Shown here piece by piece: positions 781-27,534 of a stretch of 64,000 bases of DNA (positions are counted from its first letter, which is position 1; every line of letters starts with the position of its first letter). Under the pieces are notes generated by a model, which saw only the letters and a list, made by a program, of their open reading frames with translations, made no database searches and was not told the origin of the DNA. Source of the DNA: Amycolatopsis sp. NBC_01480 (GTDB lineage: Bacteria > Actinomycetota > Actinomycetes > Mycobacteriales > Pseudonocardiaceae); the NCBI RefSeq assembly GCF_036227205.1, contig NZ_CP109442.1, positions 7,688,001 to 7,752,000 on the forward strand, written 5' to 3'. Both the position numbers and the translations under genes were made by a program.

Positions 781-836
781 GTGAAATTCGCATGGTTCGT
801 GCGTGTGCGCGGCACTGGCACCTGTGATTCCGCGGG
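781..836. promoter_or_regulatory. Possible operator repeats upstream of the YcaO operon
   Basis: GTGAAATTCGCAT (781-793) and GTGTGCGCGGCAC (803-815) lie 22 bases apart, with a weaker copy near 824. They match the 13-mer GTGCGTTCCGCAC seen near 11663 at about 9-10 of 13 positions. I aligned them by eye; in GC-rich DNA such matches can arise by chance. They are reported because the same spacing recurs at two other promoters in the window. Confidence 0.35.
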
Positions 837-881: not shown

Positions 882-935
882 ATGCGCAAGACTGAGGCGG
901 AAGTCCCCGGCGGGCACCGGGCGGTGCGCGCATGA
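882..935 (+). CDS. Possible 17-residue leader ORF coupled to the YcaO gene
   Basis: An ATG at 882 follows a good Shine-Dalgarno sequence (GGCAGGAG, about 5 bases upstream) and opens a 17-codon frame, MRKTEAEVPGGHRAVRA. Its stop overlaps the ATG of the YcaO gene as ATGA. The YcaO start itself has no obvious ribosome site, so this mini-ORF may serve to couple translation. It contains no Cys or Ser core, so it is not a convincing precursor peptide. It could also be only the true ribosome entry site of a longer transcript leader. Confidence 0.35.
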   Translation: MRKTEAEVPGGHRAVRA

Positions 936-3181
936 CTCCCGGACCGCCGGGGCGCGCGCTGGGCTTCCGGCGCCACCTGCGTGCCGAGGTGAAGGCGGGC
1001 CGGGGCGCGTACCTGTTCTCCGAACGAGGGGTCATCGCCCTGCGCGGCTCGCACGTCGAGTCGCTGGCGGCGGTGCTCGACGGCTCGCGCGAGCTGGCGG
1101 ACCTGGTGCGCGAGCGGCCGGGAGGGATGCCGCCCGGGCAGCTCGCGGCGGTGCTCGCGCAGCTGGTCGACGCCGGTCTCGTGGCGATCCGGGAACAGGG
1201 GGAGCGCGAGGTGGACGAGCAGGCGCTGGCCTACTGGGACGCCTGCGGCATCGACGGCGAGGCGGTGGCCGAACGGGGCCGGACCGCGGCCGTGCGGCTG
1301 CTGGTGGTGGGGGACGAGGTCGACGCGGAACCCGTCGAGCGGGCGCTCGCGGACGCCCGGCTGGGGCTGGCCGGCGCGGCCGCGGACCTTTCCGTCGTCC
1401 TGTGCGCCGACTACCTCGACCCACGGCTGGCCGAGATCGACGCCGAGCACCGCCGCGACCGGCGGCCGTGGCTGCTCGCCCGGCCGTTCGGCGCGCAGGT
1501 GTGGATCGGCCCGGTGTTCCGGCCGGACGGTGCCTGCTGGCATTGCCTGGCGCACCGGCTGTGGGGTCACCGGCACGCGGAGGCGTGCGTGCAGGAGCTG
1601 CTCGGCCACTCGGGCCCGGCCCGGCGTCCGGTGTCCGCGCTGCCGCCGCTGACCTCGGCCGCCGCGCACCTGATCAGCCTCGAGGTGTGCAAGTGGCTGG
1701 CCGGGTACCGGTACCGCGGCCAGCAGTCCGTGTGGACCCTCGACACCCTGGACCTGCACGGCAGGTTGCACGAGTTGCGCCGCCGCCCGCAATGCGCGGC
1801 GTGTGGCGACAGCGGGCTGGTGGCCGCGCTGGCCGACCGGCCGGTCGTGCTCTCCCCGGCCCCGAAGGCTGCTTCCGGCGGCGGCGGGCACCGCACCGCG
1901 ACCCCGGCCGAGGTGCTCGCGGGCCACCGCCACCTGGTCAGCCCCGTCACCGGCATCATCAAGGCGATCGAGCCCGATCCGGCGGCGCCCCCGTTCGTCA
2001 ACGCGTTCCGCTCCGGCTTCAACGTCGCCCACGGGATCACCGGGATGGAGGCGTTCAAGGCGGGCATGCGCTACGAGAACGGCGGGAAGGGCACGACACC
2101 GCTCGACGCGGAGGTCGGCGCGCTGTGCGAAGGGGTCGAGCGCTTCTCCGGCAACTACCAGGGCGACGAACGCCGGGTCCGCGCGTCGTACGCCGAGCTC
2201 GGCGCGGAGGCCGTGCACCCCAACGAGTGCATGCTCTTCGCCGATCGCCAGTATGCCGAGCGGGCCGGCTGGAACCGCCGGCACGCCGCCTTCCAGCAAG
2301 TCTGCGATCCGTTCGACGTGCTGGCCGAGCTCGACTGGACTCCACTGTGGACGTTGAGCGGGGAGAAGCGCCACCTGCCGACCGGGCTGCTGTACTTCGG
2401 CGCGCCGGCGGAGGGCGGACCGGTCGTGTGCGCGGACTCCAACGGCAACGCCGCGGGCAGCAGCAGGGAGGACGCGATCCTGCAGGCGACACTGGAGCTG
2501 ATCGAGCGCGACGCGGTGGCGCTGTGGTGGTACAACCGCACGCCGCTGCCGGGGGTGGACGTGCTGTCGCTCGAGGACCCGTGGCTCGTGGAGCTGCTCG
2601 GCCAGTACGCGAGCATCGGCCGCGAGCTGTGGCTGCTCGACCTGACCTCGGACTTCGGCATTCCCGTGATGGCCGCGCTTTCGCGCCGCGTCGACGGTCC
2701 GCCCGAGCACATCGTGTTCGGTTTCGGCGCCCACTTCGATCCGCGGATCGCCGCGCGGCGCGCGGCCACGGAGCTGAACCAGCTGCTGCCGATGGTGCTC
2801 GAATGCGGCCACGAGCTCGACGACCCGGATGCCCGCCGCTGGCTGGAGCACGCGACCGTCGCCAATCAGCCGTACCTGCGGCCGCGGCCGGGCGTGCGCG
2901 CCAGTGTGGCCGCCGACTTCGGGTACGTCCACCGCGCCGACATCCGCGACGACATCACCGCACTGCGGAAGATGCTGGGCGCTCAGGGACTGGAGATGCT
3001 CGTGCTGGACCAGACCCGGCCGGACATCGGGCTGCCGGTGGTCAAGGTGGTGGTCCCGGGGCTGCGGCCGTTCTGGGCGCGGTTCGCCCCGGGGCGCCTG
3101 TTCACCGTGCCGGTGCGCCTGGGCCGGTTGGCCGGACCGACACCCTACGACCAGCTGAACCCGTTTCCGATGTTCCTTTGA
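932..3181 (+). CDS. Fused leader-peptide-binding / YcaO azoline cyclodehydratase
   Basis: The 749-residue protein joins two modules. The first ~300 residues resemble the ocin-ThiF-like (E1-like) leader-binding domain of azole-peptide synthetases, with CxxC pairs near residues 201-204 (GACWHC) and 288-291 (CAACGD) that probably bind zinc. The rest is a YcaO domain with the ATP-site stretch QATLELIERDAV around residue 520. YcaO enzymes use ATP to cyclise Cys/Ser/Thr of a ribosomal peptide into azolines, with the N-terminal module holding the leader. The C-terminus reads NPFPMFL instead of the usual PxPxP tail, which is a small oddity. The SagB dehydrogenase follows after 28 bases, and a candidate substrate peptide lies at 6504-6692. 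Family assignment is firm; the peptide substrate is inferred. Confidence 0.9.
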   Translation: MTPGPPGRALGFRRHLRAEVKAGRGAYLFSERGVIALRGSHVESLAAVLDGSRELADLVRERPGGMPPGQLAAVLAQLVDAGLVAIREQGEREVDEQALAYWDACGIDGEAVAERGRTAAVRLLVVGDEVDAEPVERALADARLGLAGAAADLSVVLCADYLDPRLAEIDAEHRRDRRPWLLARPFGAQVWIGPVFRPDGACWHCLAHRLWGHRHAEACVQELLGHSGPARRPVSALPPLTSAAAHLISLEVCKWLAGYRYRGQQSVWTLDTLDLHGRLHELRRRPQCAACGDSGLVAALADRPVVLSPAPKAASGGGGHRTATPAEVLAGHRHLVSPVTGIIKAIEPDPAAPPFVNAFRSGFNVAHGITGMEAFKAGMRYENGGKGTTPLDAEVGALCEGVERFSGNYQGDERRVRASYAELGAEAVHPNECMLFADRQYAERAGWNRRHAAFQQVCDPFDVLAELDWTPLWTLSGEKRHLPTGLLYFGAPAEGGPVVCADSNGNAAGSSREDAILQATLELIERDAVALWWYNRTPLPGVDVLSLEDPWLVELLGQYASIGRELWLLDLTSDFGIPVMAALSRRVDGPPEHIVFGFGAHFDPRIAARRAATELNQLLPMVLECGHELDDPDARRWLEHATVANQPYLRPRPGVRASVAADFGYVHRADIRDDITALRKMLGAQGLEMLVLDQTRPDIGLPVVKVVVPGLRPFWARFAPGRLFTVPVRLGRLAGPTPYDQLNPFPMFL

Positions 3182-3209
3182 GGGGACGAACCGTACTGGA
3201 GCGAGTCAG

Positions 3210-4640
3210 GTGAAGGCGCAGAACCCGGACGGCTCGGCCGAGACGGTGCGGCTGTGGTCCCTCACCGAGGAGACTGCCGTCGAGACCGGCGACGACGACT
3301 CACTCGTGATCGTCACGTGGTGGCGGGAGCACGACCTGCACCACGTGCCCGGCGCCGTCCGCGACTCGCTCCACCGGATGGCGCTGGGACCGGTCTCGAT
3401 GGCGAACCTGGCCGCCGCCGCGGGCAGCGGCCCGCCGGGACTGGACGAGGTGCTCGACCGGCTGACCGGCGCGGTGGTGCACTCGCTCGCGCTCACCGAC
3501 GGCCGCGGCCCGATCGTCTCGGCGGTCCCGGCCCGGCAGGCCCCGCGGTTCCGGGTCGCGGAGCTGGGCATGGACCGGCCCGTCAAGCTTTCGCGCTTCG
3601 CGGCGTTCCGCTCGGCGGACGGCACCCTGGTGCTCGAGTCGCCGCTGGCGGGCTACCGGGTGCTCCTGACGGACGTCTCCTCGGTCCGGGTCGCGACCGC
3701 GCTCGCCGCGGCCACCACGCCCCGCGGGGTGGCGGCGGCGACCGGCGTGCCACCACACATCACCGCGGACGTCCTGGCCTACCTGGTCGCCGCCGGCGTG
3801 GTCCTCGTGGCCGACGCGGAGGCGGAGTTCGCCGAGGACCATGACCCCGAACTGGCGGCCTGGTGCCACGACGACCTGATGTTCCACACGCGCAGCCGGA
3901 CCTGGCAGCGGACCGGGGAGCCGCCCGCCACCGGTCGTGACCCGGCCAGTGGCGGGCCGCCGATCGTCAAGCGCGGGTCCGGCGGCCCGGTCGTGCCGCT
4001 GGCCCGCCCCGACGTCGCGGAGCTGACCGCGGGCGGCCCGGCGCTGGCCGCGCTGCAGGAGGCCGATCACCACTGCCCGGCGTTCTCCGGGCGCACCCTC
4101 ACCGGCGAGCAGATCGGGGAGTTCCTGTTCCGCAGCGCCCGGGTCCGGTCAGTCGGCCCCGGGCACCTGCCGGGGGGACTGAGCCACGAAGCGTCGCAAC
4201 GGCCGTACTTCAGCGTGGCCGGCCTCTACGAGCTGGAGATCTACCTGACGGTCAACCGCTGTTCCGGCCTGGTCCGGGGGATCCACCACTACGACCCGCT
4301 GGACCATGCGCTGACGCTCGTCAACGACGACGAGGAGGACGTGGCGCAGATGCTCGACATGGCGATGATCGCGGGCGGCGGCCGGCACAGGCCGTCGGCG
4401 CTGCTGAACGTGACCGCCCGGGTGGCCCGCACGGGGTGGGTGCTCGGCTCCGCCGCTTACGCGACCACGTTGATGCACGTCGGCGCGCTGCAGCAGACCC
4501 TGTACCTCAACGCCAGGGCCATGGGCCTCGACGCGCACGCGCTGCCCGTGGACGCCGCCGACCGGGTGGACCGCGCGCTGAAGCTGGAGTGGCCCGCCGA
4601 GGTCGGGGTCGGCGAGTGCGCGCTCGATTTCCCGGACTAG
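3210..4640 (+). CDS. SagB-type FMN azoline dehydrogenase
   Basis: This 476-residue protein, starting at a GTG 28 bases after the YcaO gene, matches the SagB/ThcOx family of nitroreductase-fold enzymes that oxidise azolines to azoles using FMN. The C-terminal half carries the family signatures: an SVAGLYELEIYL stretch near residue 335 (the SxGxLYPLE region) and the HVGALQQTLYLNARAMGL helix near residue 425. The N-terminal ~250 residues are more divergent and may contact the leader or the cyclodehydratase. With the YcaO protein it gives the two enzymes needed for a thiazole/oxazole peptide. A hairpin at 4650-4691 closes the transcript, so this is a two-gene operon. No protease or dedicated exporter is adjacent. 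Confidence 0.88.
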   Translation: MKAQNPDGSAETVRLWSLTEETAVETGDDDSLVIVTWWREHDLHHVPGAVRDSLHRMALGPVSMANLAAAAGSGPPGLDEVLDRLTGAVVHSLALTDGRGPIVSAVPARQAPRFRVAELGMDRPVKLSRFAAFRSADGTLVLESPLAGYRVLLTDVSSVRVATALAAATTPRGVAAATGVPPHITADVLAYLVAAGVVLVADAEAEFAEDHDPELAAWCHDDLMFHTRSRTWQRTGEPPATGRDPASGGPPIVKRGSGGPVVPLARPDVAELTAGGPALAALQEADHHCPAFSGRTLTGEQIGEFLFRSARVRSVGPGHLPGGLSHEASQRPYFSVAGLYELEIYLTVNRCSGLVRGIHHYDPLDHALTLVNDDEEDVAQMLDMAMIAGGGRHRPSALLNVTARVARTGWVLGSAAYATTLMHVGALQQTLYLNARAMGLDAHALPVDAADRVDRALKLEWPAEVGVGECALDFPD

Positions 4641-4649
4641 CCCGCCGCG

Positions 4650-4691
4650 CCCGGCCGGGAGTGTCCTTTTCGGACTCTTCAGCCGGCCGGG
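4650..4691. terminator. Bidirectional terminator between SagB and response-regulator genes
   Basis: CCCGGCCGG (4650-4658) is complementary to CCGGCCGGG (4683-4691), and the interval can also pair through GTCC/GGAC around a TTTTC loop. It lies between two convergent genes that end at 4640 and 4696, as expected of a shared terminator. Confidence 0.6.
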
Positions 4692-4695
4692 CCGG

Positions 4696-5301
4696 TCACA
4701 GCCATTCCGCGTCCGAGGCGATCCGGATGGCGTGCACCCGGTTGGTGGCGTTGAGTTTCGTGACGACGGCGGCGAGGTAGTTGCGCACGGTGCCCGCGGA
4801 CAGGAACAGCTCCGCCGCGATGTCGGAGACGTTGCGCCCGCCGGCGGCCAGCGAGAGGATCTCGATCTCGCGCGGGGTGAGCGGGCAGTCGTCGGTTTCC
4901 CAGGCGGCCAGCGCGAGTTCGCTGTCGATGTAGCGCCTGCCCACCGAAACGGAGCGGACGGCGTCGGCGAGCTTGCCCGCCGGCGCGTCCTTCAGCAGGA
5001 ACCCTCCGACCTTGGCGTCGAGCGCGCGGCGGACGGTGCCGGGCCGGCCCAGGGAGGTCAGGATCAGCGTGCGGCACGAAGGGAGGTGCTCGTGGATCTC
5101 CTTCGCGGCGGTCAGGCCGTCCATGCCCGGCAGGTCGATGTCGATGACCGCGACGTCGGGGCGGGCCGATCGGGCCGCGGGCAGGATCCGGTCGCCCGCC
5201 GCGACTTCCGCCACGACTTCGATGTCCGCCTCGAGGTTCAGCAAAGCGACGAGCGCACCGCGGACCATGTGCATGTCCTCGGCCAGAAGTACCTTGATCA
5301 C
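4696..5301 (-). CDS. NarL/FixJ-type response regulator
   Basis: The 201-residue protein has a receiver domain (residues ~1-120, phosphoacceptor in VIDIDLPGMDG) and a LuxR/NarL-type helix-turn-helix (LTPREIEILSLAAGG...LSAGTVRNYL). It is a paralogue of the regulator at 6974-7579: the first residues MIKVL.AEDMH.VRGALVALL and the C-terminal NRV.AIRIA are shared. Such proteins are phosphorylated by HisKA_3 kinases like the one at 7803-10148. It lies 71 bases downstream of an AraC-type gene on the same strand and is probably cotranscribed with it. The likely role is sensing-dependent control of the azole-peptide genes; the signal is unknown. Confidence 0.88.
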   Translation of the reverse strand: MIKVLLAEDMHMVRGALVALLNLEADIEVVAEVAAGDRILPAARSARPDVAVIDIDLPGMDGLTAAKEIHEHLPSCRTLILTSLGRPGTVRRALDAKVGGFLLKDAPAGKLADAVRSVSVGRRYIDSELALAAWETDDCPLTPREIEILSLAAGGRNVSDIAAELFLSAGTVRNYLAAVVTKLNATNRVHAIRIASDAEWL

Positions 5302-5372
5302 GTACTCACTCCGGTCCCCCAGTGTGCGGTTTCCGTCCCGATCCTAGCCTCCCGGCCGGGGCCCGGAGCGGC

Positions 5373-6119
5373 TCAGACCGCGGCCCGCCGGCGCACCGGC
5401 ACCGCGCGGAGGTCCGGCAGGGCCAGCAATCGCGGCGGGTCGAGCCGGCGCCGCGGGTGCACCTGGACGTCGCCGATGCTCGCGGTGATGCCGGGGCCCG
5501 CGGTGAGCGGGCCGCCGATTCCGGTGTGGGCACAGGGATCCTGCTCGTGCGGCCCGGTCCCGAAGGTGTGCACGATGACGTGCCAGCGTCCCGTGGGGAC
5601 GTTCGGCAGCGAGTAGGGGCCCGGTGCGGGCAGGATCAGGGAGCGGACCGGCAGGCCTTCGAGGATCCGGGTGGGGAACAACCCGACGAAGGCGGGCCCG
5701 AACTCGACTCCGGGCGGGCAGTTCAGCTGTCCCCGCACGGTCGTGCCGGGGCCGGTCCGCGCCGGCCGCCCGGGAACGCGCCGCGGCCGCCCGCCGAGGC
5801 TGCGGTAGTGCGCCGGGGAGAACCCGACGCTGCCCCGGAAGCGGGTGCTGAACGTGCCCACGCTGTTGTAGCCGACCTGGTGGCTGATGTCGGCCACGGA
5901 GATCGGCGTGGTTACCAGCAGCCGCTTGGCCTCGGCCAGGCGGAGCGCGGCCAGGAACCGGCCCGGGGAAAGGCCGGTCGCCCGCTGGAAGACGCGGGTG
6001 AAGTGGAACTTGCTGAACATCGCCGAGCGGGCCAGGTCGTCGATGGTCAGGTGCTCACCGAGGTTTTCCTGCATGGCGACGATGGCCCGCGTGACCGCGT
6101 GCCGGATGCTCTCCTCCAT
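5373..6119 (-). CDS. AraC-family regulator with N-terminal HTH (paralogue 1)
   Basis: The 248-residue protein starts at the ATG at 6119, preceded by AGGAAGGGG. Unlike most AraC regulators, the two helix-turn-helix units come first (residues ~5-105, with MFSKFHFTRVFQRATGLSPGRF and VGYNSVGTFSTRFR). They are followed by a C-terminal domain of unknown ligand. The same layout and the same motifs occur in the regulator at 11837-12739, so the two are paralogues, one beside the azole-peptide genes and one beside the enediyne core. It is divergent from the peptide gene at 6504 and shares a 384-base promoter region that contains spaced repeats. Activation of that promoter is inferred from position. Confidence 0.85.
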   Translation of the reverse strand: MEESIRHAVTRAIVAMQENLGEHLTIDDLARSAMFSKFHFTRVFQRATGLSPGRFLAALRLAEAKRLLVTTPISVADISHQVGYNSVGTFSTRFRGSVGFSPAHYRSLGGRPRRVPGRPARTGPGTTVRGQLNCPPGVEFGPAFVGLFPTRILEGLPVRSLILPAPGPYSLPNVPTGRWHVIVHTFGTGPHEQDPCAHTGIGGPLTAGPGITASIGDVQVHPRRRLDPPRLLALPDLRAVPVRRRAAV

Positions 6120-6503
6120 GGTCGGCCCCTTCCTGCGCCGAACGGGCGGATCCCGTCGCGAAAACCGTAGAAGCCCCAAGGGCTACCTCTTAAGTGCTCA
6201 GAGCACGAACAGGCGTGGTTTTCGCAGCCGGCGGAAGTGCGTTTCGCATGTCGCCGGGCCGGCCCGTTCCCGCGGGAGCGCCGGGCCGGGCCGGGGGGTG
6301 ATCATCCGGAAAGCGCGGTGCCGAACCGCGGCGGCGACCGAAGCAGGCGGGCATTTCCTGCACCGAACGCACCAGTGCGCACCGCTGGTCGGCCTATGGG
6401 GAAATCAGCAGTACCCGATGAGCTGGGCACTGGCTCCGGATGAGTGCCGCGGTGGACGATGGCGGAAAGTGAACCGAACTGATTCGCCACTGGGAGAATT
6501 CGA
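6120..6503. promoter_or_regulatory. Divergent promoter region with ~22-bp-spaced repeats
   Basis: This 384-base stretch separates the AraC gene from the peptide gene and holds no convincing ORF. It contains GTGCTCAGAGCAC (6194-6206), GTGGTTTTCGCAG (6215-6227) and GTGCGTTTCGCAT (6237-6249), with start-to-start distances of 21 and 22 bases. The last matches GTGCGTTCCGCAC near 11663 at 11 of 13 positions. Repeats on one helix face at two-turn spacing are typical of activators such as SARP or AraC proteins. No clear -10/-35 pair was recognised. The first repeat is also a perfect palindrome. Confidence 0.5.
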
Positions 6504-6692
6504 ATGAGCATGAAAATTTCGGAAAAAGCCGCGGTGCTCTTTGCCGGCGTGGGTGTCGACCTGATTGACGCGGAGGTGCCGGTCGACCTCGTCATCGACC
6601 GCTTCGACCAGTGGGGCAACGACCGCCACGTCGGCAGGGGGCTTTCCTGCATTTGCGGCGCGGCCCCCGCCCGGGACCACCACTCGGCCTGA
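6504..6692 (+). CDS. Candidate azole-containing RiPP precursor peptide
   Basis: A 62-codon gene starts at an ATG with GGGAG seven bases upstream. The first ~45 residues are acidic and amphipathic (…VPVDLVIDRFDQWGND…), as leader peptides are. They are followed by a GR dipeptide and a short tail, GLSCICGAAPARDHHSA, with Ser-Cys-Ile-Cys as the only plausible residues for azole formation. Support for it being real: good ribosome site, two strong terminators directly downstream, lower GC than its neighbours, and location in a locus with YcaO and SagB but no other candidate substrate. I do not recognise a family for the sequence. Export and leader removal would need proteins elsewhere. Alternatively it could be a small regulator. 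Confidence 0.6.
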   Translation: MSMKISEKAAVLFAGVGVDLIDAEVPVDLVIDRFDQWGNDRHVGRGLSCICGAAPARDHHSA

Positions 6693-6740
6693 GTCCGGGC
6701 TTCGGCCCGTTGGCGTGAGCGGCGCGCCGAGCCGGTATGT

Positions 6741-6778
6741 CGAAGGCTGTTCCGGGCAGTGGCCCGGAACAGCCTTCG
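6741..6778 (+). terminator. Strong hairpin after the precursor peptide gene
   Basis: A perfect 17-bp stem (6741-6757 with 6762-6778) closes on the four-base loop AGTG. It begins 48 bases after the peptide stop codon. The long perfect stem suggests a stable 3' end for an abundant short transcript. Confidence 0.85.
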
Positions 6779-6821
6779 TCGTATGGACTGCGTTTCCGGC
6801 TCATCGAAATGACACAAAGTA

Positions 6822-6973: not shown

Positions 6974-7579
6974 GTGATCAAGGTGCTGATTGCCGAGGAC
7001 ATGCACATCGTTCGCGGCGCTCTGGTTGCGCTGCTGCGGCTCGAACCCGATATCGACGTCGTCGGCGAAGTGGCCACCGGTGACGAAATCGTCCCGGCGG
7101 TGCGGGCGCTGGGCGCCGAGGTCGCGGTCATCGACATCGACCTGCCCGGAAAGGATGGCCTGACGGCCGCCGGTGAGCTGCACACCGAGGTGCCGGGCTG
7201 CCGGACCCTGATCCTGACCAGCCTGGGCCGGCCCGGCACGCTTCGCCGGGCGCTGGCGGCCAAGGTGAGCGGGTTCCTGCTGAAGGACGCCCCGCCGAAC
7301 AAGCTGGCCAGCGCCGTGCGCGGGGTGGTCGCCGGGCGCCGGATAGTCGACGGCGAGCTCGCGCTGGCCGCATGGGACATCGAGGAGTGCCCGCTGACGG
7401 CGCGGGAGCTCGAGGTGCTGCGGCTCACCGCGGAGGGCAGCAGCACGGTCGAGGTCGCGGCTCGGCTGTACCTCTCGGCGGGCACGGTCCGCAACTACCT
7501 CACGAACACCGTCACGAAGCTCAACGCCCGCAACCGGGTCGACGCGATCCGCATCGCGAAGGAGACCGGCTGGCTCTGA
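6974..7579 (+). CDS. NarL/FixJ-type response regulator (paralogue 2)
   Basis: The 201-residue protein starts at a GTG (GAGGGGG about ten bases upstream). It has a receiver domain with the phosphoacceptor in VIDIDLPGKDG and a C-terminal LuxR-type HTH (LTARELEVLRLTAEG...LSAGTVRNYL). It is a close paralogue of 4696-5301 at the same length. It converges on the double histidine kinase gene, which is its most likely partner. The last 15 codons are included in a duplicated segment, so a second copy of its C-terminal end lies in the intergenic space. It is probably the output of the two-component system controlling this locus. Confidence 0.88.
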   Translation: MIKVLIAEDMHIVRGALVALLRLEPDIDVVGEVATGDEIVPAVRALGAEVAVIDIDLPGKDGLTAAGELHTEVPGCRTLILTSLGRPGTLRRALAAKVSGFLLKDAPPNKLASAVRGVVAGRRIVDGELALAAWDIEECPLTARELEVLRLTAEGSSTVEVAARLYLSAGTVRNYLTNTVTKLNARNRVDAIRIAKETGWL

Positions 7580-7831
7580 TCGCGGGCCGGTCGCGGTTCC
7601 GGGGATCCGGGGCCCGCGCGGGGGAGCGGCTCAGACCGGGACTTCCGCGCGCAGGCGGAGATCGGCTGGCTGTGATCGGGGGCTGGCCGGGGTTTGGAGG
7701 GCGGCTCGGGTCGACGCGATCCGCATCGCGAAGGAGACCGGCTGGCTCTGATCGCGGGCCGGTCGCGGTTCCGGGGATCCGGGGCCCGCGCGGGGGAGCA
7801 GCTCAGACCGGGACTTCCGCGCGCAGGCGGA
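7535..7831. repeat. Tandem duplication of the regulator/kinase gene junction
   Basis: Bases 7535-7659 are repeated at 7707-7831, 125 bases with one visible mismatch (G at 7628, A at 7800) at an offset of 172. The unit carries the last codons of the response regulator and the last ~10 codons of the convergent kinase, so each gene end exists twice. Both genes keep an intact end. The near-identity indicates a recent event. Confidence 0.95.
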
Positions 7832-10148
7832 AGCGGCCGTCGGCCTCCACCCCCGCGGTCAGCTTGCCGCCGAGGATGGCGACCCGGTGGGCCATGTTGT
7901 CGATGCCGCTGCCCGAGGGATCCTGCCGCAGGACCTTGGCCCCCGGCGGTCCCGAAGCCTCCGGGCGTCCGGTCACGCCGTCGTTGACGATGTCGAGGGC
8001 CACCCCGCCGCTGGTCCGCTCGACCGCGATCTCGCAGCTGTCCACGTTGCTGTGCCGCAGCACGTTCGTCACGCCCTCGCGCAGCACGACCGCCAGCACC
8101 GTGCGCACCGGCCCCGGCAGGTCCTCCTCGAGCATCTCGACCCGCACGCGGACGTCCGCCGCCGCGAGCACGGAGCGCGCCGAACGGGACTCGCTCTCCA
8201 GCGACAGCTCGCGGTTCCCGCTGGCCACCGAGCGCACGTCCGCCAGCGCCAGGCGGGTGAGCCCGAGCACCTCCTCCAGCTCCGCCCGGGCGCGGTCCTC
8301 GTCGACGGCCAGGACGCGCCTGGTGAGCTCGCTCTTGAGCGCGATCGCCGACAGCGTCATGCCGAGCAGGTCGTGCAGGTCGCGGGCGAACCGCAGCCGC
8401 TCCTCGGCGACGGCCATCCCGGCCAGCCGCCGCTGGGTGGAGTCGACCTCGGCGACCAGCCGGACCTGCCAGATCAGGCCGAACACCACGAGACTGGACA
8501 AGACCGCGCCGGTGCTGAAGAAGACGACCAGCCCGGGCGGGGTGCCGAGGCCGACCTGGATGGCGACGTAGGCGGCCGTGTTGAGCGCGAACACCGCCCA
8601 GCCGGCGACCGGGGGCAGGACCAGCAGGGCGCACCCGGCGACCAGCCCGGGCGCGGTGGCCCAGTTCTGCTGCAGCGGGATCGCGGGCAGGTAGACGAGG
8701 CAGGCCTGGACGGCCAGCACGCCGTAGCTCTGGGGCGAGCGCAGCTTCGTGGCCGGCCGGGTGAAGTAGGCCAGCTGGATCACCAGCAGCGCGGCGAGGT
8801 CCCCGACGGCGAGGGCGAGCTTCCAGAACTCGGTCGTCCCCGCGATCACCAGCACGACCGGCTGCGCGGCGAGCAGGCAGAACAAGGCGTTGAGCGTCGA
8901 GCGGAGGCCCGGCGCCCCGCTCGGCGGCGCGGACGGCAGCCCCTCGGCCAGCGCCGCCTCCGGGGGCGCGGCGAGCGGGAGGTCCAGGTGCAACCGGAAC
9001 CGGCCGTCCGGGCCGGGCCCCGCGGTGACCGCGCCGCCGAGCTCCCGCACCTCCTCGACGAGCGAGGCCATGCCGGCGCCGGGCGGCGGCCTCTCCTCCT
9101 GGGCGGCACCGTCGTTGACGATGTCGAGGGACACCCGGCCGTCTTCCTGGCGGACGGTGATTTCGCACTGTTCGACGTCGCTGTGGCGCAGGACGTCGGT
9201 GACTCCCTCGCGCAGCACCTTCGCCAGCGTGGTCCGCGTCCGCACCGGGAGGTCGCCCTGGTCGAGGTGGATCCGGACGGCGATGTCCGACGCGTTCAGC
9301 AGGGACTCGGCGGTGCGCGACTCCCGTTCGAGCGTCAGCTCGCGGTAGCCGTGGGCGACGGCCCGGACGTTCGACAGCGCGCGCTGCGCGATTTCGCTGA
9401 TCTCGCCGAGGGTGCCCTGGGCGCTTTCGGCGGACTTGCGGAGCTGCCGGTGGACGAGCTCGCCCTTGAGCGCGATCGCCGAGAGGCTCAGGCCGAGCAG
9501 GTCGTGCAGGTCCTTGGCGAAGGACAGCCGCTGCTCGGCGACGGCGCGGCGGGCCAGCTCGTCCCGGGCGCGGTACAGGTCCGCCACGGTCCGGGCCAGC
9601 CGGCTCAGCAGGTACACCACGAGCCCGTAATAGGGGATGTTCAGGCTGCTGTAGACGGTGTCGAGCACACTGGCGCCGGGCACGAAGGACATGATCACGA
9701 CGACACTCGCGACGCCGGCGCCGAAGACCGGCCAGGCGATCCGCGGCCGCAGGACCAGCAGGACGCTGCCCAGGAAGAAACTGATCTGGCCGATCCAGGC
9801 GTCCCCGAAAGTCAGGACCGGCACGTAGGCCAGCGCCGCCTGGCCGGCCAGCAGGAAATGGCTGGCCCTCGAGTCGAGCCTGCTCGTCTGCCTGCCGAAG
9901 TGCAGCACCTGGATCGCGACGAGCGCGAGAGCGCAGACCACCCCGTAGGCCGCCGCGACCGGCCCGATCGAGGACTCCAGCAGCGTGACGACGAGGTTGA
10001 GGGCGCCGCCGACGAACACGATCGCCACGATGGTCGTGGCCAGGCGCTGCGCCAGGCGAGGGCGCCGGTCGAAGGCGCGGGTGCCGGGTGGTGCCGGAGC
10101 CGAGCTCCGTTCCGTTGCGGAGGCGTCCGCCGAACCCCAGGAGATCAC
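7803..10148 (-). CDS. Tandem-fused double NarL-type histidine kinase
   Basis: The 781-residue protein (GTG at 10148, AAGGAAGG just upstream) consists of two complete kinase units in one chain. Each has four to six membrane segments, a HisKA_3 dimerisation domain (KDLHDLLGLSLSAIALK in the first, RDLHDLLGMTLSAIALK in the second) and an HATPase_c domain. The second ATPase has the normal N-box, REGVTNVLRHS. In the first the key Asn is Asp, REGVTDVLRHS, so it may bind ATP poorly. A covalent dimer in which one half catalyses and the other acts as regulatory or acceptor half is a reasonable model, but inferred. Likely targets are the paralogous NarL regulators at 4696 and 6974. The sensed signal is unknown; there is no large extracellular domain. 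Confidence 0.85.
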   Translation of the reverse strand: MISWGSADASATERSSAPAPPGTRAFDRRPRLAQRLATTIVAIVFVGGALNLVVTLLESSIGPVAAAYGVVCALALVAIQVLHFGRQTSRLDSRASHFLLAGQAALAYVPVLTFGDAWIGQISFFLGSVLLVLRPRIAWPVFGAGVASVVVIMSFVPGASVLDTVYSSLNIPYYGLVVYLLSRLARTVADLYRARDELARRAVAEQRLSFAKDLHDLLGLSLSAIALKGELVHRQLRKSAESAQGTLGEISEIAQRALSNVRAVAHGYRELTLERESRTAESLLNASDIAVRIHLDQGDLPVRTRTTLAKVLREGVTDVLRHSDVEQCEITVRQEDGRVSLDIVNDGAAQEERPPPGAGMASLVEEVRELGGAVTAGPGPDGRFRLHLDLPLAAPPEAALAEGLPSAPPSGAPGLRSTLNALFCLLAAQPVVLVIAGTTEFWKLALAVGDLAALLVIQLAYFTRPATKLRSPQSYGVLAVQACLVYLPAIPLQQNWATAPGLVAGCALLVLPPVAGWAVFALNTAAYVAIQVGLGTPPGLVVFFSTGAVLSSLVVFGLIWQVRLVAEVDSTQRRLAGMAVAEERLRFARDLHDLLGMTLSAIALKSELTRRVLAVDEDRARAELEEVLGLTRLALADVRSVASGNRELSLESESRSARSVLAAADVRVRVEMLEEDLPGPVRTVLAVVLREGVTNVLRHSNVDSCEIAVERTSGGVALDIVNDGVTGRPEASGPPGAKVLRQDPSGSGIDNMAHRVAILGGKLTAGVEADGRFRLRAEVPV

Positions 10149-10540
10149 GAAGCCTTCCTTCGGCGGGTCCACCGCCGCCGGGCGGACTCGTCGGGAGCCG
10201 GCCGGGCCCGACGGTAATGGTCGTGGGGCAGCATGAGCGTAGCTCACCCCCCGGTCCGCGCAGGCTGGTTCGGGCCGGTAGGGGTGGGGTGACCCCTACC
10301 GGCCCGGCGACCCGGCGCTGTCGGGCGGCCCGGGTCGGCGCCTCGGACTCAGCCGCTCCGTGCATCGTGACCGGCGGCGCTCAGCGAGGCCCGGCGCACC
10401 GGGGCGGTCAGCTCGAAGCCGAACCAGCCGGAATGTCTTGCAGCGCGCGAGGATCGTCGATCAGGCCGCCGGGCCGGAGGTGTGCGGCCGCCGCCCGCCG
10501 CACACGTCGGTTCGCGGCCCGCACGGTGGGCGCGGTCCGC
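10149..10540. other. Intergenic region with two inverted repeats
   Basis: This 392-base interval between the SARP gene and the kinase gene (both minus strand) holds no convincing gene. GGGCCGGTAGGGGT (10272-10285) and ACCCCTACCGGCCC (10292-10305) form a perfect 14-bp stem with a six-base loop. GTGTGCGGC (10480-10488) and GCCGCACAC (10497-10505) form a 9-bp stem 36 bases past the SARP stop and may terminate that transcript. The first hairpin lies 124 bases upstream of the kinase start and could be a terminator or a binding site. Confidence 0.5.
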
Positions 10541-11347
10541 TCAGTGGTGGCTGCCTTCGGTGATCAGCGCGCGGTGCAGGAGCTGGATCTCGTCGCAGGG
10601 CTCGACGCCGAGTTCGCCGGCCAGGCGGGAACGCAGGCCCCGGTAGACCGTCATCGCGTCGGAGCGCCTGCCGCTCCGGCCGAGCGCGCGCATCAGCTGC
10701 CCGTGCAGGGCTTCGTCGAGGGGGCTGTCCGTGGCCAGGCCGTGGAGCTCGCCGATGAGCTCCCGGTGGTGGCCGCCCGCGATCTCGGCCTCGATCCGCA
10801 GGTGGAGCACATTCCGCCGCAGTTCGGCGAGCTCGGTCCGGTAGGCCGAGAGGATCGGGCCGCAGTACAGGTTGGCCAGCGGCGCGCCCGACCACAGGTC
10901 GAGCGCGGCGCGGTAGCTGTCGGCGGCGCCGGCGTGGTCCCCGCGCGCCCGCCGGTCGTCGCCGACATGCTGCAGGACCCCGAAGTCGTGCACGTCCACC
11001 CAGGCGGGGTCGATCTGCAGGGCGTACCCGGACTGGCGCGTGATCAGCATTTCGTCCGGGTCCTTGGCGGGCTGCTTCGCGTCGAGGCAGCGGCGGAGGT
11101 GGTGGACGTAGGTGTGCAGGGTCGCGCGGACGGTCCGCGGCGGGTTGTCCGACCACAGCTCCCGGATCAGGGTGTCGATGTGCACCATCCGGCCAGGACG
11201 CATCAGCAGTACCGCGAGCAGCTGCAGCACCTTGGGCGTGCTGGGTGCGCGGTCGACGCCGTGGCGCCGGACCTCCAGCGGGCCGAGGACCCTGAACCGC
11301 ACGTCCTCGCCCGGGGTGCCCTCCGCTTCTCGTTGTCCGGAGCGCAT
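10541..11347 (-). CDS. SARP-family transcriptional activator
   Basis: The 268-residue protein starts at the ATG at 11347 behind AGGAGG. It has the two-domain SARP layout: an OmpR-like winged helix (FRVLGPLEVRRHG, ...LLAVLLMRPGRMVHIDTLIRELW, residues ~17-115) and a bacterial transcriptional activation domain (~120-265, VDVHDFGVLQHVGDD onward). SARPs of this short type switch on antibiotic clusters by binding direct repeats spaced in helical turns. Its own divergent upstream region contains such repeats (11488-11697). It is the best candidate for pathway-specific activator of the enediyne genes. Confidence 0.9.
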   Translation of the reverse strand: MRSGQREAEGTPGEDVRFRVLGPLEVRRHGVDRAPSTPKVLQLLAVLLMRPGRMVHIDTLIRELWSDNPPRTVRATLHTYVHHLRRCLDAKQPAKDPDEMLITRQSGYALQIDPAWVDVHDFGVLQHVGDDRRARGDHAGAADSYRAALDLWSGAPLANLYCGPILSAYRTELAELRRNVLHLRIEAEIAGGHHRELIGELHGLATDSPLDEALHGQLMRALGRSGRRSDAMTVYRGLRSRLAGELGVEPCDEIQLLHRALITEGSHH

Positions 11348-11836
11348 TCCTGGCCTCCTGCATCGTGAATGTCCTGACGATCCCCAGCGCACGCCTCGCC
11401 GATCGGGTGGAAGCCGAACTCCGGGCTTCTCCTCGAATGTGACAGAGCGCCGTGTCCGCGGCCAGTGAGCAGCCCACCGGACCCGCCGTGCGTTCGCCCC
11501 CGGCCCGGGTGCGTTCCGCAGGGAAGGCGAGTGCCGTTCGCCCGGCCGCCCCTCCGGCGCGGCCGGTCACCGGGGCTGTGCCGGGGTCCCCGGAACGGAC
11601 CAGGCGGGAGTGCGGCGGGGACACCCCCGCTCACGCAGGCGGGCGGGCCGCACCCCGGCGCGGTGCGTTCCGCACGGGCGGGGGATGCGTTCCGCACGGC
11701 CCGCCCCGGACCTGCGCACGGGCGGCCCCGGGCACGCTCCGGATTCCTCAATCGCTCGTCCATCGCCCCACAAGGAGTGGCGTCTTCCCTGGCACCACGA
11801 CACCTGCCCTCTGCGGAATCCGAGGTTCAACTGATC
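11348..11836. promoter_or_regulatory. Divergent SARP/AraC promoter region with direct-repeat operator array
   Basis: This 489-base stretch has no supported gene. It carries a 13-mer direct-repeat series: GTGCGTTCGCCCC (11488), GTGCGTTCCGCAG (11509), GTGCCGTTCGCCC (11531), then GTGCGTTCCGCAC (11663) and ATGCGTTCCGCAC (11685). Distances are 21, 22 and 22 bases, two helical turns. The core is itself an inverted repeat, GTGCG-TTC-CGCAC. This fits binding by the SARP or the AraC protein encoded on either side. Similar arrays lie at 6194-6249 and 781-836. Confidence 0.65.
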
Positions 11837-12739
11837 ATGGTGCGCTCCCTTGTGGCTGTCGGCAACGACAGCGATTTCGACGGCCTGGCCCGCGAACCGG
11901 CGATCGAGCGGGTGGCGAAACCGGTCCGGCCCGCGGTGCTGCAGGCGATTTCTTCGATCCAGCAGCGGTATTTCGAGCCGATCACGCTCGCCGACCTCTC
12001 GTCGGAGGTTTTCGTCAGCCGGTTCCACTTCTCGCGGATCTTCGCCGAGGCGACCGGGGTGACCCCCGGCCGGTTCCTCACCGCCGTGCGCCTGTTCGAG
12101 GCGAAACGGCTGCTGCTGACGACGTCGCTGAACGTGTCCGACATCGTGTGCAGCGTCGGCTACAGCAGCGTCGGCACGTTCACGAGCCGGTTCTCCCGGG
12201 CGGTCGGGATGACCCCGACCGAGTACCGGGACCCCCGGGTCGCCGAGCTGCTGGTGGCGGTTTCGCCGACGTTCCAACGGCTTCCGCCGCTGCGGACGCT
12301 GCCGGGGGCCGGCCGAGACGGCGTCCCGCCGGACCGCGGTGCGGGCACGCTTTCGCTGCGGCTGGACCTGCCGCGCGGCTCGGGGCCCGCGGACACCCTG
12401 GTCGGCTTGTTCCCCGACGCGGTGCCCCAGCGCGGCCCGGTCGCCTTCGGCGGGGCGGCCGGCCTGGGCTCGGGCGAGCTGGTCATCGAGGGCGCGCCGG
12501 CCGGGCGGTGGACGGCGATCGCGTTCGCCCAGCACCGGACCGGACCGGGCGATACCTGGCTCTCCATCGGGTATTCCGCCGTGCACGTGCCGCCGCACGG
12601 CCGGTCCGCCGCCCGGGTGGCGTTGCGCGCACCGGCCCCGACCGACACGCCGATCGCGATCACGCTGGCGGCGACGCGGCCGCCGTTCACCCAGCGCATG
12701 CCCGTCGCGCGCGTGCCGTATCCGCGCGCGGCCGCCTGA
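11837..12739 (+). CDS. AraC-family regulator with N-terminal HTH (paralogue 2)
   Basis: I place the start at the ATG at 11837, giving 300 residues. The HTH pair occupies residues ~35-140 (VFVSRFHFSRIFAEATGVTPGRF and VGYSSVGTFTSRFS). A C-terminal domain of unknown function follows. It is the same unusual N-terminal-HTH architecture as 5373-6119, and the two share most of the HTH residues. It is the first gene of the plus-strand enediyne block, 30 bases before a DUF1702 gene, and is probably cotranscribed with it. Control by the repeats upstream is inferred. Confidence 0.85.
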   Translation: MVRSLVAVGNDSDFDGLAREPAIERVAKPVRPAVLQAISSIQQRYFEPITLADLSSEVFVSRFHFSRIFAEATGVTPGRFLTAVRLFEAKRLLLTTSLNVSDIVCSVGYSSVGTFTSRFSRAVGMTPTEYRDPRVAELLVAVSPTFQRLPPLRTLPGAGRDGVPPDRGAGTLSLRLDLPRGSGPADTLVGLFPDAVPQRGPVAFGGAAGLGSGELVIEGAPAGRWTAIAFAQHRTGPGDTWLSIGYSAVHVPPHGRSAARVALRAPAPTDTPIAITLAATRPPFTQRMPVARVPYPRAAA

Positions 12740-13879: not shown

Positions 13880-14863
13880 TTGGGCGACGGTTGGCGCGGG
13901 TTGAGGCGCCGGATACTCACCCCTGATGATTCCGAGACTTCGCTGGAAAAACGTGGGTTCCACGTGAAGAGCCCGCAGTCCCGGGAGTTGCTGGAAACAG
14001 TGGGAAAGAAATTCTTGCTCGGTTATGCGCACGCTATGGAGGCGCGCACCCCCGAACAGTGCGAGGAGTGGCTGGGGCGCATTCCGGTGCAGTTCCGAGG
14101 GTTCGCGTACGAGGGCGCGGGAATGGGCTACGCGATGCTCGACGGCCTGCCTTTCGGCGGACGCGAGCACGTCGGCGGCTTCCTGGCCCGTCCCGGTGGC
14201 GAACTGCAGCAGTACATCGTCCTGGTCGGCGCCGGCTGGGCAATGGCGCGCCTGCCGCGCTTCGCCTGGCCTGCCGCGGACCGGTTCGACCCGCTGCTGC
14301 GCTGGCTGGTGCTCGACGGCTACGGCTTCCACCAGGCGTACTTCAAGACCGGGAAGTACGTCCGGCAGCAGTACCGGGAGCCGGGCTTCCCGTGGCCGTC
14401 GCGCAGGCACGGCGATTACGCGCTGCGGGCGATCGACCAGGGCATCGGCCGCGCGCTGTGGTTCGTCTGCGGCACCGACGTCGGACTGGTGACCAGGACG
14501 GTCGCCGGCTTCGACCCGGCCCGCCACGGTGACCTCTACGCCGGGATCGGCCTGGCGGCGACGTATGCCTGCGGGGCGAGCGAGGAGGAACTGGGCGAAC
14601 TCGCCCGGCGTGCGGGCGAGCACCGCGGGCAACTGGCCCAGGGCAGCGCTTTCGCGGCCGACGCCCGGGTTCGCGCCGGCCTGCTGCTGCCCGAGACCGA
14701 CGTCGCCACCCGCGCGCTGTGCGGCCTGTCCGCCGAACGCGCGGCGGCGATCACCCGGGAGGTGCGCCCGGCCGTGTCCGCCGACGGCGAGCTCCCGGCA
14801 TTCGAAGTCTGGCGGCAGCGGATCGCCGGCGCGGTGCTGACCCACGGAGGTGCGAACACATGA
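13880..14863 (+). CDS. DUF1702 enediyne-cassette protein (copy 2)
   Basis: The 327-residue protein starts at a TTG (13880) with GAGGGGGAA five bases upstream. It is a paralogue of the preceding gene and shares RGFAYEGAGMGYAMLDGLPFGG, MARLPR, LDGYGFHQAYF and AIDQGIGRALWF with it or with the family. It contains no membrane segment or recognised catalytic motif. Two adjacent DUF1702 genes followed by unbV and unbU is the conserved order of enediyne cassettes. Its stop overlaps the unbV start as ATGA, so the two proteins are probably made in fixed ratio. Confidence 0.85.
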   Translation: MGDGWRGLRRRILTPDDSETSLEKRGFHVKSPQSRELLETVGKKFLLGYAHAMEARTPEQCEEWLGRIPVQFRGFAYEGAGMGYAMLDGLPFGGREHVGGFLARPGGELQQYIVLVGAGWAMARLPRFAWPAADRFDPLLRWLVLDGYGFHQAYFKTGKYVRQQYREPGFPWPSRRHGDYALRAIDQGIGRALWFVCGTDVGLVTRTVAGFDPARHGDLYAGIGLAATYACGASEEELGELARRAGEHRGQLAQGSAFAADARVRAGLLLPETDVATRALCGLSAERAAAITREVRPAVSADGELPAFEVWRQRIAGAVLTHGGANT

Positions 14864-16833: not shown

Positions 16834-16837
16834 GGTC

Positions 16838-17836
16838 ATGGCGACGCCCATAGCGACGACAGCGGACACTGCACCGCCGAAGCGGACCAACAAGGTCACC
16901 ACGGCCCTACGCCGCTTCGCCATCTCCATCACGATTTTCAACATCGCCGGCTACACCTTCCTCGGGTTCGAGCAGCCGTGGCTGTACCCGTTCATCGCGC
17001 TGGCGACGGCGTACGCCACGGAGCTCCTGCTGGAGACCATCAACGCCCGGGTGACCGGCCGGGAGGTCCGGTTCCGCGGCAACGGGTTCAAGGGCCTGGC
17101 GGAGTTCCTGCTGCCCGCCCACATCACCGCCCTGGCGCTGAACATGCTGACCTACGTCAACGACCACGTCTGGGCGATGGTCTTCGGGGTCGTCGTCGCG
17201 GTCGGCGCGAAGTGGGTCCTGCAAGCGCCGGTGTACGGCCGGATGCGGCACTACATGAACCCGTCCAACTTCGGGATCACGGTCATGCTGCTGGTGTTCC
17301 CGTGGGTCAACATGACGCCGCCGTACCACTTCTCGGAGAACATCGACACCTGGGGCGGCTGGCTGATCGTGGGGATCATCATGGTGTCGGGCACGGTGCT
17401 CAACTCGCTGCTGACCGGCCGGATGTGGCTGATCGCGGGCTGGCTGTCGTTCTTCGTGGTCCAGGCGGTCCTGCGCGGGGTGCTGTTCGGCACGGCCATC
17501 CCCGGGGCGCTGGCGATGGGCACCGGGATCGCGTTCGTGCTCTACACGAACTACATGGTGACCGACCCCGGCACGTCGCCCTCGAAGCCGGTCCCGCAGT
17601 TCGCCTTCGGGGCCGGGGTCGCGCTGATGTACGGGTTCTTCGTGGCCGCGCACATCGCCTACGGGCTGTTCTTCGCCACGGCGAGCGTCTGCCTGATCCG
17701 CGGGATGTTCCTGTGGAGCCTGCACTTCTCGAACAAGGCGCGGATCAAGTTCGAGGCCGGGCGGGCCGCGGCGCGGGTGCGGGAACCCGAGGCACAGCCG
17801 GCTCCGGCCGAGGACGGCAAGCCCCTCGCGGCGTGA
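16838..17836 (+). CDS. unbU: UnbU-like membrane protein of enediyne cassette
   Basis: The 332-residue protein has about eight to ten membrane helices, starting near residue 28 (FAISITIFNIAGYTFLGF), and resembles the NqrB/RnfD-like UnbU proteins found in enediyne clusters. The loop NPSNFGITVMLL is the region where related NqrB/RnfD proteins carry their flavin-attachment or conserved residues. It may pass electrons at the membrane or help move the polyene intermediate; neither is proven. It sits directly behind unbV. A charged C-terminal tail rich in Ala/Pro ends the protein. Confidence 0.88.
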   Translation: MATPIATTADTAPPKRTNKVTTALRRFAISITIFNIAGYTFLGFEQPWLYPFIALATAYATELLLETINARVTGREVRFRGNGFKGLAEFLLPAHITALALNMLTYVNDHVWAMVFGVVVAVGAKWVLQAPVYGRMRHYMNPSNFGITVMLLVFPWVNMTPPYHFSENIDTWGGWLIVGIIMVSGTVLNSLLTGRMWLIAGWLSFFVVQAVLRGVLFGTAIPGALAMGTGIAFVLYTNYMVTDPGTSPSKPVPQFAFGAGVALMYGFFVAAHIAYGLFFATASVCLIRGMFLWSLHFSNKARIKFEAGRAAARVREPEAQPAPAEDGKPLAA

Positions 17837-27081: not shown

Positions 27082-27534
27082 ATGACGGACTACTACGAGC
27101 TCCGCCACACGGTCGGCTTCGAAGAGACCAACATGGTGGGCAACGTCTACTACGTCAACTACGTGCGATGGCAGGGGCGCTGCCGCGAGATGTTCCTCGT
27201 GGAGCGGGCTCCGGCGGTGCTGGAGGACATCCGCGGCGACCTCAAGCTCTACACGCTGAAGGTCGAGTGCGAGTTCTTCGCGGAGATCACCGGTTTCGAC
27301 GAGCTGTCCATCCGGATGCGCCTGGAAGAGCTGACCCAGACCCAGCTGCAGTTCACCTTCGACTACGTGCACCTGCACCCGGACGGTGAGCGGCCGGTGG
27401 CGCGCGGGCGGCAGCGGATCGCGTGCATGCGCGGGCCCAATTCCGCCACCGTGCCGGAACGGGTGCCCGAGGCGCTGCTGGAGGCGCTGGCGCCGTACTC
27501 GGCCGCCTCCGTGCTCGACGGCAAGGGGGCGTGA
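27082..27534 (+). CDS. Enediyne hotdog thioesterase (E10/CalE7 type)
   Basis: The 150-residue protein is a single hotdog domain of the 4HBT class. It begins YYELRHTVGFEETNMVGNVYYVNYVRWQGRCRE, within which the NVYYVNYVRWQG segment is the substrate-channel helix of CalE7/SgcE10-type enzymes. Members lack the usual acidic catalytic residue and release the PKSE-bound polyene, giving a heptaene or related product. The start lies one base past the PKS stop, so PKS and thioesterase are tightly coupled. This pair is the best evidence that the locus makes an enediyne. Confidence 0.93.
   Translation: MTDYYELRHTVGFEETNMVGNVYYVNYVRWQGRCREMFLVERAPAVLEDIRGDLKLYTLKVECEFFAEITGFDELSIRMRLEELTQTQLQFTFDYVHLHPDGERPVARGRQRIACMRGPNSATVPERVPEALLEALAPYSAASVLDGKGA

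Follow-up and report, generated by a model that had tools for sequence, protein, structure and literature searches.

A predicted azole-peptide module with two-component regulators is linked to the enediyne cluster in Amycolatopsis

Introduction

In the genome of Amycolatopsis sp. NBC_01480, genes for the enzymes of a predicted azole-containing peptide lie beside a gene cluster of the enediyne kind, and the locus raises the question of whether the two merely adjoin one another or act together. We analyzed a stretch of 64,000 nucleotides (contig NZ_CP109442.1, positions 7,688,001 to 7,752,000; ‘the window’), in which an initial annotation had singled out positions 882..6692 as an azole-peptide locus with YcaO and SagB enzymes and a 62-residue candidate precursor. 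The core genes named there are real, whereas the boundaries required correction: position 882 is the start of a 17-residue open reading frame (ORF), and the module (approximately 932-12739) continues with regulators to about 12.7 kb. From left to right it encodes YcaO, SagB, a response regulator (RR1), an AraC-type regulator (AraC1), the peptide, a second response regulator (RR2), a histidine kinase, a SARP regulator and a second AraC-type regulator (AraC2). With a locus so dominated by regulators, the likely role of the peptide shifts from that of a second product to that of a signal.

YcaO/SagB-type enzymes convert cysteine (or serine and threonine) residues to azoles, and many actinobacterial antibiotic clusters, enediynes included, show little or no expression under laboratory conditions. 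We describe below a conserved linkage between the module and the enediyne cluster and operator-like sites that the two appear to share, on the strength of which we treat the module as one of the regulatory components of the enediyne locus. The peptide probably serves as a signal to turn the cluster on, and we favor, with modest confidence, the reading that an azole-peptide autoinducer and its two-component system belong to and control the enediyne cluster.

Results

Linkage to enediyne clusters

The window contains an enediyne polyketide synthase (PKSE) gene together with that of its thioesterase, and we assign the cluster to the enediyne kind because the latter matches SgcE10, CalE7 and DynE7. 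(The record for 4i4j is titled ACP-polyene thioesterase; we take it to be SgcE10.)

21258..27080, + strand: enediyne polyketide synthase (PKSE), with DynE8 among its matches
27082..27534, + strand: enediyne thioesterase of the SgcE10/CalE7/DynE7 type (4i4j, E 1e-72)

We collected 395 YcaO relatives in genome contigs and carried out the locus work on the best 80 (labeled L...) plus five loci of the window strain's own genome. Of the 50 genomes from which these loci come, 36 contain a PKSE match at 1e-100, identity being as low as 34-44% in a few, and in 25 of the 50 the PKSE and YcaO genes, compared by hand, share a contig, with the PKSE approximately 12-71 kb downstream. Linkage outside the genus was found in Actinopolyspora righensis, two Haloechinothrix, Saccharopolyspora indica and Actinokineospora xionganensis.

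A second, genus-wide set comprised 80 genomes of the same genus, with YcaO called at 1e-250. Both genes are present in 60 of these, YcaO alone in one, PKSE alone in four and neither in 15 (Fisher test, 9e-12, with genomes treated as independent). The C-terminal part of the PKSE lies 14.6-75 kb from 57 of the 66 YcaO copies (57 genomes), in every case downstream and on the same strand. Enediyne loci had not been known to the initial annotation to include a YcaO/SagB/peptide set; those of these 57 genomes do. Of the nine unlinked YcaO copies, two are on a contig other than that of the PKSE and one is in a PKSE-less genome; the remaining six are 55-58% identical copies, located on different contigs or at distances exceeding 1 Mb.

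The same annotation had allowed for an accidental neighborhood, in which an unrelated locus for a ribosomally synthesized and post-translationally modified peptide (RiPP) happens to adjoin an enediyne cluster. Actinobacterial clusters are often adjacent, and five of the 66 YcaO copies in the genus are unlinked second copies in PKSE-bearing genomes. Against this stand the uniform order and strand of all 57 linked copies, the occurrence of linkage in five genera (with the same order in the four beyond Amycolatopsis) and the shared operator-like sites described below; we consider chance neighborhood extremely improbable and the linkage of module and cluster to be shown.

In 19 genomes a distance of 24-31 kb separates YcaO from the peptide match near the cluster, and in each of them the PKSE lies in the interval; in three arrangements of this type that we read (L095, L096 and L097) the peptide sits with response regulator and histidine kinase genes. 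This interleaving, as well as the conserved linkage, would suit an azole peptide, or a fragment of one, that is built into the enediyne, carries it or protects it. The YcaO family, however, also occurs without an enediyne polyketide synthase (14 of the 50 first-set genomes, with no match at 1e-100), and 17 PKSE copies in the genus have no YcaO nearby, two of them (76-78% identity) being contig cases, probably contig breaks, and 15 having 49-70% identity. We judge such a structural partnership improbable.

Genes of the module

The features of the module and of the adjoining enediyne side are as follows.

932..3181, + strand: YcaO heterocyclase of the LynD/TruD/MusD type, 749 residues, with a leader-binding/E1-like part and a YcaO domain (profiles; alignment to LynD, 4v1t)
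3210..4640, + strand: SagB/ThcOx-type azoline oxidase (profile scans; CyaGox, 5lq4, E 4e-37)
4696..5301, - strand: response regulator RR1, LuxR/NarL-type (profile scan; conserved in relatives)
5373..6179, - strand: AraC-type regulator AraC1 (profile scan; kept beside the peptide in relatives)
6504..6692, + strand: precursor peptide, 62 residues, leader motif LVIDRFDQW and tail GLSCICG (tblastn, hidden Markov model (HMM), motif family)
6735..6784, + strand: very stable hairpin 3' of the peptide gene, without a T tract (folding against shuffles; T-tract scan)
6974..7579, + strand: response regulator RR2, LuxR/NarL-type (profile scan; conserved in relatives)
7803..10247, - strand: double histidine kinase, with two HisKA_3 stretches and nine hydrophobic segments (simple hydropathy script)
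10541..11392, - strand: SARP regulator, BTAD and Trans_reg_C (profile scan)
11837..12739, + strand: AraC-type regulator AraC2, the first in the run of genes on the enediyne side (cut-off exceeded for HTH_18 and HTH_AraC; conserved before DUF1702 genes)
12770-13768 and 13880-14863, + strand: two DUF1702 genes, enediyne side (profile scan)
14860..17836, + strand: UnbV-like (FG-GAP/ASPIC) and UnbU-like (RnfD-like, below cut-off) genes, enediyne side

Between the UnbU-like gene and the PKSE lies a GMC oxidoreductase gene (+ strand). UnbV and UnbU are presumed names, except where Pfam itself uses ‘ASPIC and UnbV’. A direct repeat of 125 bases (99% identical) spans the end of the RR2 gene (7535-7659) and that of the kinase gene (7707-7831).

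Both enzymes of the initial annotation were confirmed. The YcaO protein matches PF02624 (E 4e-99) and, above cut-off, TIGR03604 and TIGR03882; its residues 11-747 align to LynD (E 7e-151), and TruD and MusD were also matched. The SagB protein matches TIGR03605 above cut-off and PF22767 (ThcOx) and aligns to CyaGox. The locus thus comprises a YcaO with a leader-binding part, an azoline dehydrogenase and, nearby, a precursor with a conserved leader and a Cys/Ser/Thr core, as in azole RiPPs (thiazole/oxazole-modified microcins, TOMMs, or linear azol(in)e peptides). By homology, the two enzymes probably build sulfur-containing rings into the peptide. A second YcaO gene in the same genome (L082, C1:1938845-1941094) encodes a protein 45% identical to that of the window, with a SagB-like match (35%) beside it.

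The precursor peptide and its family

The peptide gene is preceded by a good ribosome site, as had been claimed (GGGAGA at 6492-6497, 6 nt 5' of the ATG). Its product matches no Pfam or NCBIfam model and a protein database search returned the query alone, in keeping with the initial description of its leader family as unrecognised. A tblastn search of the 85 loci nevertheless revealed relatives flanking other YcaO genes (best E 6.9e-6); these lie either immediately 5' of YcaO or some 5 kb 3' of it, in the interval from AraC1 to RR2. An HMM built from 26 rows, the window peptide among them, found that peptide as its sole match in the 10.1-Mb host genome (E 9e-20; the next at 0.43). In the genus, which is the source of the nearest YcaO relatives, the HMM detected the peptide in 59 of 61 genomes with YcaO and in none of 19 without it (p 2e-16). 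Of the two exceptions, G122 has a peptide, recognized by eye, between RR2 and AraC1 (the 60th genome), and none was found in G109; several genus genomes carry further copies elsewhere. Nonsynonymous divergence is lower than synonymous divergence in seven of eight ortholog pairs of relatives, the eighth having no synonymous and four nonsynonymous changes. We conclude that 6504-6692 is a real member of a precursor family, beyond a chance ORF, as the initial annotation had proposed, and that the peptide and YcaO co-occur. A lack of peptide homologs near YcaO genes in other genomes would have refuted that annotation, and such homologs exist.

By motif, ribosome site and eye, a family member could be assigned in 65 of the 80 YcaO loci, and in none of L013, L015, L016, L028, L034, L038, L041, L043, L044, L046, L065, L072, L076, L079 and L080. 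The family has an LxIDxFD-like leader motif; a loose leader expression fits 58 of the 65, the remaining seven being leader variants (L037, L042, L054, L055, L064, L070 and L073). The core sequence is variable: a [CST]x[CW] core is present in 45 of the 58 leader-fitting peptides and a core cysteine in 51, and cores are short, many having one or two ring-forming residues.

Two strong terminators had been described behind the peptide gene. The hairpin at 6735-6784 is indeed very stable (-42 kcal/mol, z -10), and the first (within 6690-6720) folds no better than shuffled sequences (z -0.9); no T tract was found on the + strand in a scan of 6180-6973. The 17-residue ORF at 882-935, which overlaps the YcaO start, was considered as a precursor and rejected: it has no leader motif, and no similar ORF occurs in 15 relatives, three of which have other short frames at that position.

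Several variants of the precursor family were observed. Repeated-core precursors occur, for example, in L032, L047, L056, L063, L068, L071 and L107 (with units such as TICRAEPV and QFTFCAQPDP); in three of these (L032, L047 and L056), response regulator, histidine kinase and operator are absent from the stretch examined. Lone extra precursor copies, mostly with a GCFTGACC-like core, are found in several Amycolatopsis genomes (L098-L105); the window YcaO, kinase and response regulators have no match in the 15-17 kb around them, and these copies may undergo modification in trans. Streptomyces-type relatives of the module (L045, L048, L050, L057-L060, L062-L064, L066, L067, L070, L071 and L073) have longer precursors, in which a nitrile-hydratase-like leader, recognized by eye, precedes an LxIE/D-like motif. 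When three precursors were scanned with TIGR04351, that of L045 scored 84.7 bits (cut-off 65), while those of L048 (57.7) and L063 (36.4) fell below.

Conserved regulatory genes

Module genes were counted by tblastn with the window proteins, to which genes absent from the window are invisible, because our first gene caller mislabeled genes (an example being a 1102-residue antisense ORF over AraC2 and DUF1702). A response regulator at least 55% identical to RR1 or RR2 is present in 68 of the 80 YcaO loci, the histidine kinase in 65, SagB in 54 and SARP in 46; peptide, kinase and response regulator are co-conserved, with 58 of the 65 precursor-bearing loci also having the response regulator. Two sensor-kinase halves, each with a DLHDLLG box, are fused in the kinase. 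In other actinobacteria the kinase, response regulator and SARP part recurs beside clusters of other kinds, with ketosynthase, polyketide cyclase, phosphopantetheinyl transferase, nonribosomal peptide synthetase-like and major facilitator superfamily (MFS) genes nearby (10 representative proteins scanned). A signal is the simplest role for the peptide, since kinase and response regulator (often with SARP) stay constant while the neighboring cluster changes.

These observations also bear on the principal competing explanation, in which the azole peptide is a second antibiotic produced together with the enediyne under one two-component switch, and the kinase senses something other than the peptide, such as envelope stress, the enediyne or growth phase. 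Products of known YcaO/SagB loci are often antibiotics, the precursor cores vary, and shared operators are what simple co-regulation would provide. The recurrence of the same regulatory company beside clusters of other kinds is less readily accommodated, as are the short cores. No immunity gene was recognized among the module genes of the window, nor was an exporter found further on, where the genes after SARP are AraC2, DUF1702, UnbV-like and UnbU-like; MFS transporter genes do, however, occur in the vicinity of certain relatives, at loci of the L045 and L038 types. We regard a second antibiotic as unlikely, though as a serious contender.

Alternatively, the modified peptide might stay in the cell and serve the AraC, SARP or response regulator proteins as a co-regulator, in place of a secreted signal. 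The module's named genes include no exporter or protease, and the two adjoining AraC-type proteins both carry an additional C-terminal region that could suit such a role. The kinase, however, is the more constant partner, AraC matches being almost confined to enediyne-linked loci (L061 is a weak exception), and we find an intracellular co-regulator slightly less probable still than a structural partner of the enediyne.

One further locus, L051, is a 9-kb contig titled Candidatus Melainabacteria with actinobacterial-type YcaO, DUF1702, UnbV-like and double kinase genes; the label is perhaps a binning error. It has operators in the DUF1702-YcaO interval and in the peptide-UnbV gap.

A conserved operator motif

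Expectation maximization (EM) on regions upstream of precursors yielded an ATGAAAA..CAT motif, located approximately 110-130 nt 5' of the precursor start in many loci of several genera and at around -300 in loci of the L001 type. Across loci, a conserved RTGAAAANNNCAY-like operator is found in front of the genes for the precursor, YcaO and SARP, and of SagB where that gene is displaced. A position weight matrix (PWM) re-trained on 33 regions, with the window excluded, gave a log-likelihood of 254, compared with 70.5-86.4 in eight first-order random sets. A palindrome-constrained motif was weak (log-likelihood at most 137, against 356 unconstrained) and was set aside. The sites of the window are:

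781..794, - strand: operator site CATGCGAATTTCAC, upstream of YcaO (14.0 bits with the window-free PWM; genome-wide pattern match)
6237..6250, - strand: operator site CATGCGAAACGCAC, upstream of the peptide (15.0 bits, best in the 64-kb window; pattern match)
11663..11676, - strand: operator-like site CGTGCGGAACGCAC in the SARP/AraC2 gap (pattern match; weak PWM score, 6.9 bits)
11685..11698, - strand: operator-like site CGTGCGGAACGCAT in the SARP/AraC2 gap, 22 bp from the 11663 site (pattern match; 9.4 bits)

PWM matches above 9 bits in the window (777 on both strands, 6233 and 11681) all fall in promoter gaps of the module. The SARP/AraC2 sites form a tandem pair with a spacing of 22 bp, located 139-174 nt 5' of AraC2, and second operator copies in other loci cluster at 22-23 bp. 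A degenerate pattern derived from the window sites has nine matches in the 10.1-Mb genome (one in a backward control), four of which are the module sites at 781, 6237, 11663 and 11685; the other five lie inside genes (by a crude caller), score 4.4-10.1 bits and are taken as chance.

Over the 80 loci, 109 positions score at least 15 bits, compared with 12 in reversed sequence. Response regulator and operator are both present in 64 loci, the regulator alone in four, the operator alone in three and neither in nine; the corresponding held-out counts are 32, 3, 3 and 9 (p 3e-5), some held-out loci being close relatives of training loci. In all six loci in which SagB has the opposite orientation (L036, L065, L068, L069, L074 and L077) an operator lies 94-161 nt before SagB, and in L019, L039 and L052 one lies before a displaced SARP gene. 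The divergent SARP-YcaO gap has a site of at least 11 bits in 38 loci. Nine other enediyne clusters (400 kb) contain 30 sites of at least 11 bits, compared with three in the control; 13 are beside AraC1 or RR2 and 17 elsewhere in the stretches. In G108 a 14.7-bit site lies 180 nt before the start of the PKSE match; the module is 70 kb from the PKSE there, and some sites may belong to other genes.

From the co-occurrence of response regulator and operator we infer that the regulator would bind the conserved motif in front of the peptide gene. Module and enediyne cluster seem to share DNA control sites, and their co-regulation, which the initial annotation had raised as one option, is well supported.

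Several observations weigh against control of the enediyne cluster by a peptide signal. On the operator side, four window regions were part of the EM run that supplied the seed of the PWM, although the PWM was later re-trained without them, and the degenerate pattern was composed after three of its four window matches had been seen. Two of the matches outside the module (8.6 and 10.1 bits) score like the weak SARP/AraC2 pair. Four loci have the response regulator without an operator of at least 15 bits (L016, L030, L043 and L044) and three have such an operator without the regulator (L013, L051 and L079); L013 and L016 have a second block with response regulator, kinase and peptide beyond the PKSE. 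Sites of at least 11 bits before AraC2 are not conserved in L013-L027, and direct control of the enediyne head may therefore be special to the window strain, with SARP as the usual link. On the peptide side, seven of the 58 leader-fitting peptides (L005, L018, L020, L025, L026, L029 and L062) have cores without cysteine, which would need Ser/Thr cyclization unless these peptides are not substrates. As initially noted, no protease or exporter is present among the named genes of 932-12739, a statement that concerns the window, relatives not having been systematically annotated for either. Finally, the modified peptide is implicated indirectly, as a putative ligand of the kinase.

Discussion

The gene content suggests the following mechanism. 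By homology, YcaO would bind the precursor through its LVIDRFDQW leader and cyclize core cysteines (possibly serines or threonines) of the SCIC tail, and SagB would oxidize the resulting azolines to azoles. A protease and an exporter encoded elsewhere in the genome would trim and release a short azole peptide. Gene order and co-conservation point to the multi-pass histidine kinase as its putative sensor, which would phosphorylate RR1 and RR2. The response regulator might then bind the RTGAAAANNNCAY-type operators observed before YcaO and the peptide gene, creating positive feedback, and also, more weakly, the tandem pair observed between SARP and AraC2; the SARP and AraC proteins, together with the response regulator, would raise enediyne gene expression.

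More broadly, and as a tentative proposal that we hold with slightly less conviction than doubt, YcaO/SagB azole peptides may constitute a widespread class of actinobacterial pheromones, in which a portable module of precursor, heterocyclase, oxidase, kinase and LuxR-type regulator, often with SARP and always with its own operator, is attached to enediyne, type II polyketide synthase-like and other antibiotic clusters and times their switch-on, with the core providing strain-specific signaling. If the azole peptide is a cognate inducer, such a cluster would have a defined molecular trigger encoded by a gene, and the clusters that respond to it would be predicted by the operator motif. Peptide signaling would also gain a new ring chemistry, and a large set of YcaO/SagB loci without an assigned role would acquire one.

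Open-access literature examined by title and abstract (subscription papers and preprints being outside that scope) does not describe a YcaO module with SARP or two-component signaling, and for YcaO with enediynes it yielded a thiopeptide genome-mining paper. The main text of the 2016 enediyne survey (PMC5181780) does not mention YcaO, cyclodehydratase or Amycolatopsis, and the main text of the TOMM survey of Cox et al. 2015 (PMC4603692) does not mention SARP, LuxR, histidine kinase, Amycolatopsis or enediyne.

Linear azol(in)e peptides and TOMMs (of the goadsporin, plantazolicin and streptolysin S type) resemble the module in their leader-binding-fused YcaO, SagB-type dehydrogenase and precursor with a leader and a Cys/Ser/Thr core. 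The window module differs from them in its short cores, in having no recognized exporter, protease or immunity gene, and in belonging to a type that is constantly accompanied by a histidine kinase, a LuxR-type response regulator and often SARP. The cyanobactin proteins LynD, TruD and CyaGox are full-length sequence relatives of the window YcaO and SagB, but regulatory neighbors are present here and no PatA/PatG-type gene is among the module's named genes (no search with PatA/PatG models having been made in the genome or relatives); the leader motif presumably also differs from that of cyanobactins. Some Streptomyces module precursors match the TIGR04351 putative TOMM peptide (nitrile-hydratase-like leader) and have an LxIEEL/LxIDHL-like motif before the core, whereas the window peptide is matched by no such model. 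Peptide pheromone two-component systems (the agr type and the autoinducing lantibiotics) differ in ring chemistry, which would be azole here, and an AgrB- or LanT-like gene was not recognized in the module, where sensing by the kinase is presumed. The likeness to these systems lies in the organization of the whole: a peptide, its modifying enzyme, a kinase and a response regulator united in one module, with an operator in front of the peptide gene.

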